Assembly: GCA_019635285.1 (NCBI GenBank)
Contig: JAHBZS010000017.1
Coordinates: 1-64,000, forward strand
Length of the DNA: 64,000 nt
Source: Rubrivivax sp.
GTDB lineage: Bacteria; Pseudomonadota; Gammaproteobacteria; Burkholderiales; Burkholderiaceae_C
Direction: 5' to 3'
Each line of letters begins with the position of its first letter. Within the stretch, counting starts at the first letter, position 1. Below the pieces are notes generated by a model. That model saw nothing but the letters and a program-made list of their open reading frames with translations. It was not told the DNA's origin and did not search any database. A program made the translations under genes and the position numbers. Shown piece after piece: positions 54,115 through 58,059 of this stretch.

Positions 54115-54825
54115 TCAAGCGGGCCGGGCGTCGTGGAAGACCAGCTCCAGCCCGAGGCGCTGACCGCTGCGCACGCGGCTGATGGCGTGCCTGAGCTGGA
54201 CCCTGTAGGGACCCTTCGCACCCTGGTGCGGGCGCTGCGCGACGGCGATCACCGCCGCGTCGCCCTGGCGCAGAGGCAGCACCATCGGCCGCGACTGCAT
54301 GCGCGGCCGCTGCTCGGTCATGACGAACTCGCCGCCGGTGAAGTCCTCGCCCGGTGCGCTGAGCAGCGCCACCAGCTGCAGCGGGAAGACCCACTCGCCA
54401 TCGTTGTACTGGCGCAGCGCCGCGTAGCCGCCTGCGTTCAGGCGACTCAGGTGCGACTGCGCACGCGTCTGGCCGGCCTCGCGTTGGCGGGCCATGCAGG
54501 CCTCCAGCGTGTCGGGATAACGCTGCGCCAGCCCCAGCGTGTCGTTCCAGCGGTGGGCGATCGGCAGCAGCTGCCGGTAGAAGCCGGCGCGCAGATCGGC
54601 GACCAGCGCAGGCGGGGCCGCCGGGAAATGGAACTGCTCGCCATCGCCCAGGTCCTGCGACGCCAGCGACACCTTGCGCCCCACACCCGGCGCATCGCAC
54701 AGCGCCGCCAGCTCGCGCACCTGGCGCTCGTCCAGCAGGCCGGGCAGCAGCGCATGGCCCTCCTCGTCCAGCTGCCGGCCGAGGTCCGCCCAGTCGAGGC
54801 GGGCGACGAGGTCTTGGGTGCTCAT
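54115..54825 (-). CDS. 2OG-Fe(II) oxygenase-like protein with degenerate iron site
   Basis: A 236-residue paralogue of the oxygenase at 57253-58002; they align over nearly full length, with VFPLQ, GGEFVMT, LRQGDA and RHAISRVRSGQR shared. The HxD iron-binding triplet, HQD (153-155) in the paralogue, is here R138-Q139-Y140. The distal His (H213) and the 2-oxoglutarate Arg (R223) remain. It may be inactive as an oxygenase, or act as a partner subunit. It follows ada by 22 nt and would be induced with it. Confidence 0.82.
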   Translation of the reverse strand: MSTQDLVARLDWADLGRQLDEEGHALLPGLLDERQVRELAALCDAPGVGRKVSLASQDLGDGEQFHFPAAPPALVADLRAGFYRQLLPIAHRWNDTLGLAQRYPDTLEACMARQREAGQTRAQSHLSRLNAGGYAALRQYNDGEWVFPLQLVALLSAPGEDFTGGEFVMTEQRPRMQSRPMVLPLRQGDAAVIAVAQRPHQGAKGPYRVQLRHAISRVRSGQRLGLELVFHDARPA

Positions 54826-54847: not shown

Positions 54848-55936
54848 TCAGGCGGATTCGCGGCTCAGCAGCTCGCGCTTGCGCTCGACGCCCCAGCGGT
54901 AGCCGGAGAGTTCGCCGCTGCGGCGCACCACCCGATGGCAGGGGATGGCGACGGCCAACGGGTTGGCGCCGCAGGCCTGCGCCACCGCACGCACGGCCTT
55001 GGGCTGGCCGATGCGCGCGGCAACCTGCGCATAGCTGACGGTCGCCCCCGGCGGCACCTCGCGCAGCGCTTGCCACACGCGCTCCTGGAAGGCGGTGCCC
55101 TGCACGTCCAGCGGCAGGTTCAGGCCCAGCGAAGGCGCCTCGACGAAGCCCACGACCTGCGCCACCAGCCGCTCGAAGGCAGCGTCCCCGCCGATCAGCA
55201 GCGCCTTCGGAAACTGGTCCTGCAGGTCTTCGACCAGGCTTTCCGGGTCGTCGCCCAGCAGAATGGCGCAGATGCCGCGCTGGCTTTGAGCCACCAGGAT
55301 CGCGCCCAGCGCACATTGCCCCACCGCAAAACGGATCTGCATGTTGGGCCCTCCCGCACGGTAGTCGCGCGCGCGCATGCCCAGCAGGCCGTTCGAGGCG
55401 GCGTAGAAGCGGCTGTTGGAGTTGAAGCCCGCGCCGTAGATCGCCGCGGTCACCGTGGCGTCCTTGCCGCCCAGTTCGGCGCGCAGCTTGTGCGCGCGAA
55501 AGGCGCTGGCATAGGCCTTCGGCGTCAGGCCGGTCTGCGACCTGAAGACGCGGTGGAAGTGGAACGGGCTCAAGCCCACCGCCGCGGCCAGCGCATCCAG
55601 GGCCGGTGACGTCTCCGCGCGCTCGATCAGCCGGCAGGCTTTGGCCACCAGCGCCGCACGCTGCGCCGCCACGGCCGTGCGGTCGCCGGCCGCTCGCTGG
55701 CTGGCGCGATAGCCGGCGGCCTTGGCCGCGCGTTCGGTGGCGAAGAACTCGACGTTTTCGCGCCGCGGCAGGCGGGTGGACGCGCTGGGCCGGCAGTACA
55801 CGCCGGTGGTGCGCACGCCGTAGACAAAATGCCCGTCGGCCCGCGCGTCGCGCGCCTGCACCGCCGCCCAGCGCTGCGCGTCGCTGGCATAAGCGGCCGT
55901 GGGGGCCTGTGAGCGGGTCTTCGTGGTGGTGTTCAT
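54848..55936 (-). CDS. ada: Ada-type regulator / O6-methylguanine-DNA methyltransferase
   Basis: A 362-residue three-domain protein. Residues 20-90 match the Ada methylphosphotriester sensor, but of the zinc ligands C38, C42, C69 and C72 (E. coli numbering) only the first is kept: C48, then A52, S79, A82. An AraC HTH follows (95-195; SPFHFHRVFRSQTGLTPKAY). The C-terminal methyltransferase has PCHRV with C333 and looks active. A box AAT-N6-GCAA at 55998-56010 precedes it. It would repair O6-methylguanine; how it senses damage without the zinc site is open. Confidence 0.93.
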   Translation of the reverse strand: MNTTTKTRSQAPTAAYASDAQRWAAVQARDARADGHFVYGVRTTGVYCRPSASTRLPRRENVEFFATERAAKAAGYRASQRAAGDRTAVAAQRAALVAKACRLIERAETSPALDALAAAVGLSPFHFHRVFRSQTGLTPKAYASAFRAHKLRAELGGKDATVTAAIYGAGFNSNSRFYAASNGLLGMRARDYRAGGPNMQIRFAVGQCALGAILVAQSQRGICAILLGDDPESLVEDLQDQFPKALLIGGDAAFERLVAQVVGFVEAPSLGLNLPLDVQGTAFQERVWQALREVPPGATVSYAQVAARIGQPKAVRAVAQACGANPLAVAIPCHRVVRRSGELSGYRWGVERKRELLSRESA

Positions 55937-55960: not shown

Positions 55961-55966
55961 AGTATC
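55961..55966 (-). promoter_or_regulatory. probable -10 of ada
   Basis: GATACT on the minus strand, 31 nt downstream of the Ada box and 24 nt before the ada ATG. GAGGAA then serves as ribosome site. Confidence 0.5.
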
Positions 55967-55974
55967 GGTCGGAC

Positions 55975-56008
55975 TTCGATCGCAAGCACTCGGTTTCTTG
56001 CGATCGAA
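55975..56008. promoter_or_regulatory. inverted repeat overlapping the Ada box
   Basis: TTCGATCGCAAG (55975-55986) and CTTGCGATCGAA (55997-56008) form a perfect 12-bp inverted repeat with a 10-nt spacer. The right arm contains the GCAA half of the Ada box; the left arm is a second, inverted partial box. Confidence 0.6.
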
Positions 56009-56010
56009 TT
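55998..56010 (-). promoter_or_regulatory. Ada box upstream of ada
   Basis: The minus strand reads AATTCGATCGCAA, matching the E. coli Ada operator pattern AAT-N6-GCAA. It is identical to the box at 58047-58059 and at the same 31-nt distance from its -10. Confidence 0.65.
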
Positions 56011-56034
56011 CCTGTACCCATCCAGGCGGTGCCC

Positions 56035-56583
56035 TCAGAACAGCGCCGCCGTCTGCGGCACGGCGGCGCGGGCATCGATCGCCGCTTCATGCTCTAGCAG
56101 CCAGCGCTTGCGCTGCAGCCCCCACGCAAAACCCTTCAGGTCGCCGTTCGCGCCCAGCACCCGATGGCAGGGCACGAGGATGGCGATCGGGTTGGCGCCC
56201 ACGGCCGCACCCACGTCCAGCGCCGCACGCCAGTCGGTGAGGCCCAACGACCGGCCGAGCGCCCCATAGGTCATCGTCTGCCCCGCCGGGATGCGACGCA
56301 GCGCCGCCCAAACGCGCTGCTCCAGTTCGGTGCCGGCGGCTGCCGTGGCGATGCCGTCGAGCCCATCCAGCGCGCCGTCGAAGTAGCGTTGCAGCGCGTC
56401 GGCCATCGCGGCCGGTGGCGGACCTTCACTCAGCGCCAGGCCGCCGCCGTACTGCGCCTGCAGGTGATCGTGCAGGCGCCGGCGCCGGTCCGCGAACGAC
56501 AGTGCGCGCACGCCACCCTGTGCATCGGTGGCCAGCCGCATGGCGCCCAGGGGCGACGGCAAGTGACTCAGAACGATCTTCAT
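56035..56583 (-). CDS. ogt: methylated-DNA-protein cysteine methyltransferase (Ogt type)
   Basis: A 182-residue suicide repair protein that removes alkyl groups from O6-alkylguanine. The acceptor cysteine is in ILVPCHRVLG, followed by GDLKGFAWGLQRK; the MTYGALGRSLG recognition helix is present. ATG at 56583 overlaps the alkB stop (ATGA). It therefore adds a second methyltransferase besides Ada in the same regulon. Confidence 0.93.
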   Translation of the reverse strand: MKIVLSHLPSPLGAMRLATDAQGGVRALSFADRRRRLHDHLQAQYGGGLALSEGPPPAAMADALQRYFDGALDGLDGIATAAAGTELEQRVWAALRRIPAGQTMTYGALGRSLGLTDWRAALDVGAAVGANPIAILVPCHRVLGANGDLKGFAWGLQRKRWLLEHEAAIDARAAVPQTAALF

Positions 56584-57248
56584 GTCTTCGCTCCTCGCGG
56601 CCCCGCCTGGCGGAAGCTCAGGTTCACGCGCTGGCTGCCCAGCCGCGGGTGCGGCTCGCCCTTCAGCGGCAGGACGCCGTGATAGCGCAGGCGATCCTCG
56701 GCGCCCCAGACGACCACGTCGCCGTGGTCTACGGGCAGCTTCGTCGTCGGGTCCGCGCGCCGATGGCCGCCGAACAGGAAGGTCGCGGTCGCCCCCAGCG
56801 ACACCGAGACGATGGGCGCGCGGTGGTCGCGCTCGTCCTTGTCCTGGTGCAGACTCAACCTCGCGCCAGGCTGGTAGCGGCTGACCAGACAGGCGTCGGG
56901 CCGGAAGTCGTCGAAGCCGGCCGCCGCGGCCCCGGCATGGGCCAGCCGCGCGAACCCCTCGGGCATCGCCGGCCAGGGCCGGCCGCTCACGGGGTCGATG
57001 AGCGAGTAGCGATAGCCGCGGCCGTCGCTGGTCCAGCCCAGCGCGCCGCAGTTGGTCAGCGCCACCGACATGCTGAAGCCGCCGGGCGTCACCATGTGCC
57101 GGAACGGCGCGGCCTGCTGGATCGCCGTGAGCGAGTCCCACAGTTCGTCGGCCCAAGGCAGCGCGAAGCCGCGCAGCACGCAGGCCCGCGGCCCGATGGC
57201 CTGCACCGTGTCGCGCTCCGGCTCGTCGAACAGGCTGGGCGAGTGCAT
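56580..57248 (-). CDS. alkB: alpha-ketoglutarate-dependent DNA dealkylase AlkB
   Basis: A 222-residue 2OG-Fe(II) oxygenase that reverses 1-methyladenine and 3-methylcytosine damage. Iron ligands are in LSLHQDKDERD (HxD) and RYHGVLPLKG (distal His), and RVNLSFR carries the 2-oxoglutarate arginines. MVTPGGFSMSVALTNCG is typical of AlkB. It starts at 57248, 4 nt after the preceding stop, or at 57263 with a short overlap. It is in the middle of the Ada-box operon. Confidence 0.94.
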   Translation of the reverse strand: MHSPSLFDEPERDTVQAIGPRACVLRGFALPWADELWDSLTAIQQAAPFRHMVTPGGFSMSVALTNCGALGWTSDGRGYRYSLIDPVSGRPWPAMPEGFARLAHAGAAAAGFDDFRPDACLVSRYQPGARLSLHQDKDERDHRAPIVSVSLGATATFLFGGHRRADPTTKLPVDHGDVVVWGAEDRLRYHGVLPLKGEPHPRLGSQRVNLSFRQAGPRGAKT

Positions 57249-57252
57249 GGCG

Positions 57253-58002
57253 TCAGCGCGCATCGTGGAAGATCAACCCGACCGTGTGCCGGTGGCCGCT
57301 GCGCACGCGGCTGACGCCGTGGCGCATCGCCACCTTGCGCGCCGCGCCACGCGCGCCGGCCTCCGGGCGCTGGTGCACCGCGAACACCACGGCATCGCCC
57401 TGGCGCAGCGGCACCACGTCCGCACGCTGATACCCCGGTCGGGCCTGGGTCATCACGAATTCGCCGCCGCTGAAGTCCTGCCCGGGCTGCGACAGCAGGA
57501 CCGCCACCTGCAGCGGAAACACATGTTCCCCGTACAGGTCCTGATGCAGGCAGTTGTAGTCGCCCTCGCCGTACTGCAGCAGCAGCGGCGTGGGGCGCGT
57601 CTGGCCCGCACGATGGCAGCGCTCCAGAAAGGCCTCGAGCGTGGCCGGGTAAGCGACGTCGATGCGCAGCTGCCGGTTCCAGCGCGTGGCCGTCGGCACC
57701 AGCCGGGGATAGAGCGCGTGCCGCAGCTGTTCGAGCAGCGGCGGCAGCGGGTAGGCGAAGTACTTGTACTCACCGCGGCCGAAGCCGTGCCGCGCCATCA
57801 CCACCTTCGAGCGGTAGCCGTCTTCGCGCACATACCGCGCCGCCAGTTGCCGGCATTGCGTGGGCGTCAGCAGTCCGGGCAGCACGGCGTGGCCGTCGGC
57901 GTCCAGCGCGCGTTCGACGCCCGTCCAGTCCTGCGCGTCGACACCGCCGGGCCGGCGCGCGGTGCTCTCCTCGGTCCTCGTGTGGCTGTGCGATGGATGC
58001 AT
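57253..58002 (-). CDS. 2OG-Fe(II) oxygenase of the alkylation regulon
   Basis: A 249-residue oxygenase. The facial triad is H153-x-D155 (LHQDLYGE) and H228 (MRHGVSRV), with R238 for 2-oxoglutarate. It is often annotated as a prolyl-hydroxylase-like protein; its position as first gene of an Ada-controlled operon with alkB and ogt suggests a DNA or RNA dealkylation role. It has a degenerate paralogue behind ada. ATG at 58002 is 7 nt from TAGACT, so the transcript should be leaderless. Confidence 0.85.
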   Translation of the reverse strand: MHPSHSHTRTEESTARRPGGVDAQDWTGVERALDADGHAVLPGLLTPTQCRQLAARYVREDGYRSKVVMARHGFGRGEYKYFAYPLPPLLEQLRHALYPRLVPTATRWNRQLRIDVAYPATLEAFLERCHRAGQTRPTPLLLQYGEGDYNCLHQDLYGEHVFPLQVAVLLSQPGQDFSGGEFVMTQARPGYQRADVVPLRQGDAVVFAVHQRPEAGARGAARKVAMRHGVSRVRSGHRHTVGLIFHDAR

Positions 58003-58009
58003 GGCTCGC

Positions 58010-58015
58010 AGTCTA
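58010..58015 (-). promoter_or_regulatory. probable -10 of the 2OG oxygenase-alkB-ogt operon
   Basis: TAGACT on the minus strand, 7 nt before the ATG at 58002 and 31 nt downstream of the Ada box. Confidence 0.5.
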
Positions 58016-58046
58016 GGAACGCCCGGTGCGCCGGACACTCCGATCC

Positions 58047-58059
58047 TTGCGATCGAATT
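58047..58059 (-). promoter_or_regulatory. Ada box upstream of the 2OG oxygenase-alkB-ogt operon
   Basis: AATTCGATCGCAA on the minus strand, part of GAATTCGATCGCAAG, a 15-bp identity with the region before ada. It would be centred near -50 from the predicted start, where Ada binds in E. coli. Confidence 0.65.

Follow-up and report, generated by a model that had tools for sequence, protein, structure and literature searches.

In Escherichia coli, the Ada regulon consists of ada-alkB, aidB and alkA and is marked by an A box (AAT) and a B box (GCAA); in the textbook Ada protein, the zinc site is thought to sense the damage. Here we describe a related system in the first 64,000 nucleotides of contig JAHBZS010000017.1 from Rubrivivax sp. 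(hereafter the window), where the same Ada operator stands before ada and before a second operon made up of a PF09859 2-oxoglutarate (2OG)-Fe(II) oxygenase gene, alkB and ogt. An E. coli tiling-array study found AAT-N6-GCAA about equally frequent before responding and non-responding genes, from which its authors concluded that further sequence elements have to act with it (PMC6505713). Cada2 of Caulobacter has no A-box domain and binds GCAA plus CGG, and activation by it requires both an arginine of the second helix-turn-helix (HTH) and the GCAA/CGG motif (PMC10957082). For Pseudomonas putida, Ada boxes are reported at alkA and gcdH at an E. coli-like distance to the -35/-10 elements (PMC3788762). 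These articles, and PMC4437013 below, are drawn on in part, and comparisons with them refer to the sections consulted.

Two promoters share one operator design

Both window promoters carry AAT-N6-GCAA upstream of alkylation-repair genes in the form of AATTCGATCGCAA, on the minus strand, at 56010-55998 before ada (N6 TCGATC) and at 58059-58047 before the PF09859/alkB/ogt operon. The two boxes match the E. coli operator perfectly and lie in a shared stretch of 15 nt, and a -10 hexamer follows exactly 31 nt past each B box, GATACT for ada (55961..55966) and TAGACT for the operon (58010..58015), again on the minus strand. The identical boxes, the 15-nt identity and the 31-nt spacing to these hexamers had been described in the initial annotation and stood up to measurement; what it overlooked, and what we add, are the loss of zinc cysteines, a further operator block (CGGAGT), and an inverted second site at ada of a kind found only where the Ada lacks a full zinc site. 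With up to two mismatches, AATTCGATCGCAA has 4 matches in the window versus 0.72 expected. The geometry is the same as that of E. coli aidB (AATGTTTTAGCAA, 31 nt, CATACT) and like that of E. coli ada, where CAGCCT, a -10-like hexamer read from the sequence, stands at 31 nt; E. coli alkA differs in that its box is 22 nt from the -10-like TATGCT.

The additional block, which resembles an X box, begins 4 nt past the B box and occupies positions 17-22 from the start of the box, about one helical turn past GCAA. At the operon promoter it reads CGGAGT (58037..58042, minus strand), so that GCAA and CGG are both exact, and at the ada promoter it reads CCGAGT (55988..55993, minus strand), with CCG at the X place. 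We consider it likely that the two are Ada-activated sigma-70 promoters of one design.

Within the 4.9-Mb assembly (completeness 94.5%), the exact 13-mer AATTCGATCGCAA occurs in only these two places. AAT-N6-GCAA alone occurs 93 times; when N31-NANACT is appended, 2 occurrences are left, both in the window, compared with 0 for the reversed control. A promoter profile derived from other genomes (56 promoters), with the window excluded, returned the window promoters at E values of 6.5e-10 and 8.2e-8 and the next three matches at 0.30 to 0.74, the first of which (0.30) is a reverse reading of the ada dyad described below. The initial annotation had suggested a genome-wide search for AAT-N6-GCAA 31 nt before a -10 hexamer and had proposed a local alkylation regulon; that search yields only the window promoters, and the profile search agrees with it. 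No other promoter combining A box, B box, X block and -10 was found in the assembly. Since pattern and profile searches give only these two, the regulon within this assembly is, as predicted from its promoters, limited to them.

The same genome encodes a second Ada-like regulator, an AdaA-AlkA fusion (L215, G000:C4:20500-25000), whose N-terminal domain keeps four zinc cysteines as judged by eye in the translation. An ogt-like match downstream of it has one TAG counted inside, and no Ada box of the window type was found in this stretch.

The box and its spacing are conserved before orthologous ada genes

The initial annotation had staked its proposal on conservation of the box upstream of orthologues, and this is what we observe. 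At 51 of 80 ada loci, the 160 nt preceding the match contain a perfect AAT-N6-GCAA in coding-strand orientation, and allowing one core mismatch gives a box for 96 of 111 aligned Adas. Loci were counted as having a box at 6 or more of the 7 core bases and a score above 5, which held for 96/111, then 103/121, and 46/57 in a later sample. With the ada boxes chosen blind to the -10, 85 of 96 ada promoters have NANNNT (74 of 96 TANNNT) at gap 31, and the remaining gaps between 23 and 39 each give 7 of 96 or fewer. The second promoters, window included, have NANNNT at gap 31 in 36 of 37 cases; they were picked with a matrix containing the X block, so that only their -10, and not their X block, counts as independent evidence.

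The later sample, an even order-level set of 300 genomes that was not used to build anything, contained 66 with a strong Ada match, which gave 57 new loci, 6 already in the set and 3 (G445, G560 and G570) that were left out. One of the new loci, L228, is a copy of L044 and is excluded from the counts. The box is present in 45 of 56 loci, and NANNNT follows at gap 31 in 42 of these 45 (43 of 46 counting the copy). The box is thus conserved before orthologous ada with its distance to the -10 unchanged, and the 31-nt geometry is, on this comparison, old. From 30 loci, the alignments left out L152 (the window) and L161, L162, L164-L166 and L168 (not full length), as well as L167 and L169-L173 (different HTH, no box). 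L163, which runs out of frame near its end and is the sole Ada of 121 without Cys321, was kept, and the 121 still include three near-copy pairs (97% or more).

The A box largely goes with the N-terminal domain

The strongest evidence in our analysis for a tripartite operator comes from the comparison of homologues with and without the N-terminal domain. Eight loci of the later sample encode homologues that share 53-68% identity with the window Ada over the HTH and methyltransferase parts, and in none of them does Pfam match an Ada zinc domain. Upstream of seven of these eight, GCAA-N4-CGG is followed by NANNNT at gap 31; no other such match occurs in 48 kb of these loci on both strands, with a background rate of roughly 0.005 per 450 nt. 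At the A-box place of these seven promoters, AAT is never present (0/7) and AAC occurs in one. For an unbiased comparison, promoters were picked by GCAA-N4-[CT]GG and the 31-nt gap alone, which 117 of the 167 N-domain Adas examined have upstream and 50 do not. Of these 117 promoters, 112 have two or more A-box bases out of three, versus 1 of 7 for the homologues lacking the domain, and the exact AAT occurs in 81 of 117 versus 0 of 7. By these counts, the A box tracks the N-terminal domain for the most part, though not strictly, and the B box, the X box and the -10 spacing track the AraC part.

The X-box-like block and the second HTH

Where the Ada has Arg176, 82 of 97 promoters show CGG at the X place; where it lacks this arginine, 0 of 6 do, and four of these six Adas are from Enterobacteriaceae. 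In the later sample, CGG is present in 39 of 45 promoters without the copy L228 and, with the copy included, in 39 of 44 that go with Arg176. When the X block was regressed on identity and on the state of the second HTH, the latter was favoured (t 6.8 vs -0.35), with related rows treated as independent; among 12 Adas less than 60% identical outside the HTH2 helix, the difference in X block has a P of 0.07.

The window Ada has RFYA at residues 176-179 of its second HTH, and its arginine falls at the place aligned with the Cada2 arginine; the order of GCAA and then CGG is likewise shared with Cada2 as described in the sections of PMC10957082 consulted. Relative to that account, the window Ada retains an N-terminal A-box domain and its promoters an A box, the second HTH reads RFY rather than RLHD, and the spacer between B and X boxes is 4 nt rather than 3 nt. 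In the same-genus homologue L121, which we take for Cada2-like, RLH aligns with the RFY of the window Ada. A sequence search of solved structures found no Ada chain covering the second HTH: 1wpk and 1zgw stop short of it, and 1sfe begins past its recognition helix. Our model of the window Ada is silent on an X-box contact because the second HTH is weakly modeled, with a predicted local distance difference test (pLDDT) score below 50 at residues 172-189.

An Ada that has lost most of its zinc site

The window Ada (54848..55936, ATG at 55936, minus strand) has the domain set of E. coli Ada, in that Pfam matches the Ada zinc domain, HTH_18 and the methyltransferase, and it combines an Ada zinc-domain fold with an AraC-type DNA-binding domain and a methyltransferase domain. 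At the four zinc-cysteine positions 38, 42, 69 and 72, however, it has Cys, Ala, Ser and Ala, so that only Cys38 is kept of the four cysteines of E. coli Ada. The residues that contact the operator in the consulted part of PMC4437013 are otherwise preserved, both those for the A box (Arg45 and Arg71) and those for the B box (Phe114, His115 and Arg118), as is the methyl acceptor Cys321 in a PCHR motif; in these residues and in AAT-N6-GCAA, the window system resembles that of E. coli. Because three of the four zinc cysteines are gone, the window regulator is, by its sequence, not a textbook Ada and is best described as a variant of the E. coli Ada-like family.

Seventy-nine Adas lack a full zinc site, meaning that they have fewer than four of the four cysteines (L221 among them keeps two). 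Cys38 is lost as well in six of the 79 (L042, L077, L096, L099, L110 and L220), three of which, L096, L099 and L110, nevertheless carry boxes before ada. We do not claim a single origin for such Adas, because a quick tree needs 3 state changes, of which at least 2 are forced by supported branches. The only other full-length Ada match in 36 genomes of the genus (L115, in G022) has four cysteines and is only 64% identical to the window Ada, which raises the possibility that the window cluster was acquired by transfer.

An inverted second site at ada

Within the 31-nt spacer of the ada promoter, 12 nt from the first site, lies an inverted Ada half-site, ACTTCGATCGCAA (55973..55985, plus strand), which adds a second A box and forms a dyad; E. 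coli has neither this nor the X-box block. The inverted copy occurs at ada only and is not found at the alkB operon promoter. Of the 96 ada promoters, 19 have TTGC at exactly +25, compared with at most 4 at the other offsets scanned, and in 15 it is accompanied by two or more of the three A-box bases. The second promoters show this fuller form in 0 of 37 cases and TTGC by itself in 2 of 37 (P 0.06). The dyad is found at 17 of 77 promoters of Adas without a full zinc site (18 of 78 with the copy L228) versus 0 of 69 promoters of four-cysteine Adas, the rows being related, and on the quick tree its state changes at least 7 times. The inverted site separates the first site from the -10, a position that suggests a shut-off; in E. 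coli, unmethylated Ada is reported as a negative regulator of ada in the consulted part of PMC4437013.

Genes of the two operons

Downstream of ada lies a PF09859 2OG-Fe(II) oxygenase gene (paralogue B, 54115..54825). The second operon consists of PF09859 paralogue A (57253..58002, ATG at 58002), alkB (PF13532, 56580..57263) and an ogt-like methyltransferase gene (PF01035, 56035..56583), all assigned by Pfam and all on the minus strand; compared with E. coli, the regulon thus holds two PF09859 oxygenases and an ogt-like gene. The two paralogues, which are diverged from each other, share one cluster, and the same pair surrounds ada in several related loci. Of the 37 second promoters, window included, 28 have a PF09859 relative in the 1.6 kb that follow, which makes this little-studied oxygenase a regular neighbor of such promoters; Pfam's name for the family, which is family wording only, refers to action on damaged DNA. 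The ATG of paralogue A is 7 nt past its -10 (58015-58010, minus strand), and because of this short distance the mRNA of the operon is probably leaderless. Among second promoters, the median distance from the -10 to the start is 33 nt (start found for 33 of 37).

Alternative explanations

That the boxes arise by chance or as a compositional repeat, TCGATCGA-like palindromes supposedly being common in this GC-rich genome, would fit the 46 genomic matches to the 13-mer at 2 mismatches. The -10 at 31 nt, however, occurs in only two places, and the boxes are conserved across genera, the two promoters of L040, a Rubrivivax metagenome-assembled genome, each carrying AATTCGATCGCAA; conservation refutes this account, which we consider hardly credible. 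It is also unlikely, in our judgment, that CGGAGT is a -35-like element for a sigma factor without Ada contact. Its location in the -35 region at a fixed distance from the -10 would suit such a role, but positions 17-22 imply a 21-nt spacer and the block bears no likeness to TTGACA. The block is moreover altered in all four Enterobacteriaceae (E. coli, Klebsiella, Citrobacter and Salmonella), whose Ada has Ser for Arg176 and whose A and B boxes are intact, and Cada2 needs the whole GCAA/CGG motif according to the consulted text of PMC10957082.

Two other rivals concern ada itself. The inverted half-site might be a co-operative dimer site that boosts activation rather than a shut-off, as perfect dyads do exist (TTGC-N6-ATT at exactly +25 in 7 of 96 ada promoters) and the two arms of a promoter share 4.37 of the 6 N6 bases versus 3.11 of 6 for arms of different promoters (0 of 10000 permutations). 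The arm, however, covers the stretch between the first site and the -10 that RNA polymerase needs, and the second promoters lack it almost entirely, by the TTGC and A-box counts given above; we regard this alternative as rather unlikely. An N-terminal domain without zinc cysteines could also be a decaying relic, leaving the window Ada unresponsive to alkylation, and the loss of three of the four zinc cysteines, like the further loss of Cys38 in six of 79 such Adas, would agree with that; we consider it distinctly improbable.

Several observations weigh against our preferred reading of two promoters activated by Ada through A, B and X boxes. The X block of the window ada promoter has one mismatch, one of the two promoters without Arg176 in the later sample (copy included) has CGG, and the quick tree leaves only 1-2 independent pairs for the association of Arg176 with CGG. 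When Ada columns were scanned against the X block, the top place among 362 went to residue 174, which fell to fifth after loci were added; because methyltransferase columns outrank the second HTH with more loci, covariation alone is confounded by relatedness, and we rejected it as evidence. Five N-domain Adas of 117 (L067, L077, L094, L210 and L223) have the B box, the X box and the gap without an A box, and a strict rule that the N-domain means an A box was therefore rejected. Two of them, L067 and L094, belong to the P. putida group, in which the box criterion finds a box next to ada in 0 of 7 four-cysteine Adas (L067, L075, L081, L083, L089, L092 and L094). The consulted part of PMC3788762 describes degraded boxes at the P. 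putida ada and alkB promoters and no induction of alkB, so that alkB in a genome with Ada does not imply induction; compared with P. putida, both window operons, that of alkB and that of ada, have perfect boxes.

A model for the window regulon

From the boxes, their spacing, the restriction to two promoters, the dyad and the loss of zinc cysteines, all found by sequence comparison, we infer the protein contacts, activation, repression and inducing signal of a system that by these features works like an Ada regulon. Read from upstream, the design is an A box AAT, 6 nt, GCAA, 4 nt and CGGAGT, with the -10 exactly 31 nt past the B box. The N-terminal domain of Ada would read the A box, the first HTH of the AraC domain the B box, and the second HTH, via Arg176, may read the X box. 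Ada would then occupy the place of the -35 element and recruit RNA polymerase, at one promoter to transcribe ada and probably PF09859 oxygenase B, and at the other to transcribe PF09859 oxygenase A, alkB and ogt. At the inverted site, which is restricted to ada, bound Ada may block RNA polymerase and so provide a built-in shut-off.

More tentatively, Adas without a zinc site might stand between E. coli Ada and Cada2. Reading of the A box would be kept and, because the zinc-thiolate electrostatic switch is gone, binding would be free of Cys38 methylation; Cys38 has been lost several times among these Adas. The switch would have moved to Cys321, as in Cada2, a constitutively binding Ada would be held back by the inverted operator, and later loss of the N-domain would take the A box with it and leave B and X boxes, the pattern of seven of the eight homologues without this domain.

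In the open PMC literature, we found no report of missing zinc ligands, of an A box combined with an X box, or of palindromic Ada operators. The fixed 31-nt gap and the X block are concrete candidates for the extra elements demanded by the consulted part of PMC6505713, the gap alone picking 2 of the 93 AAT-N6-GCAA sites in this genome, and an operator with A, B and X boxes links two systems that the consulted part of PMC10957082 treats as alternatives. An Ada without its zinc site, with the A-box arginines and the operator intact and a reversed site so far seen only in such lineages, would offer a direct test of how an alkylation switch can be rebuilt.
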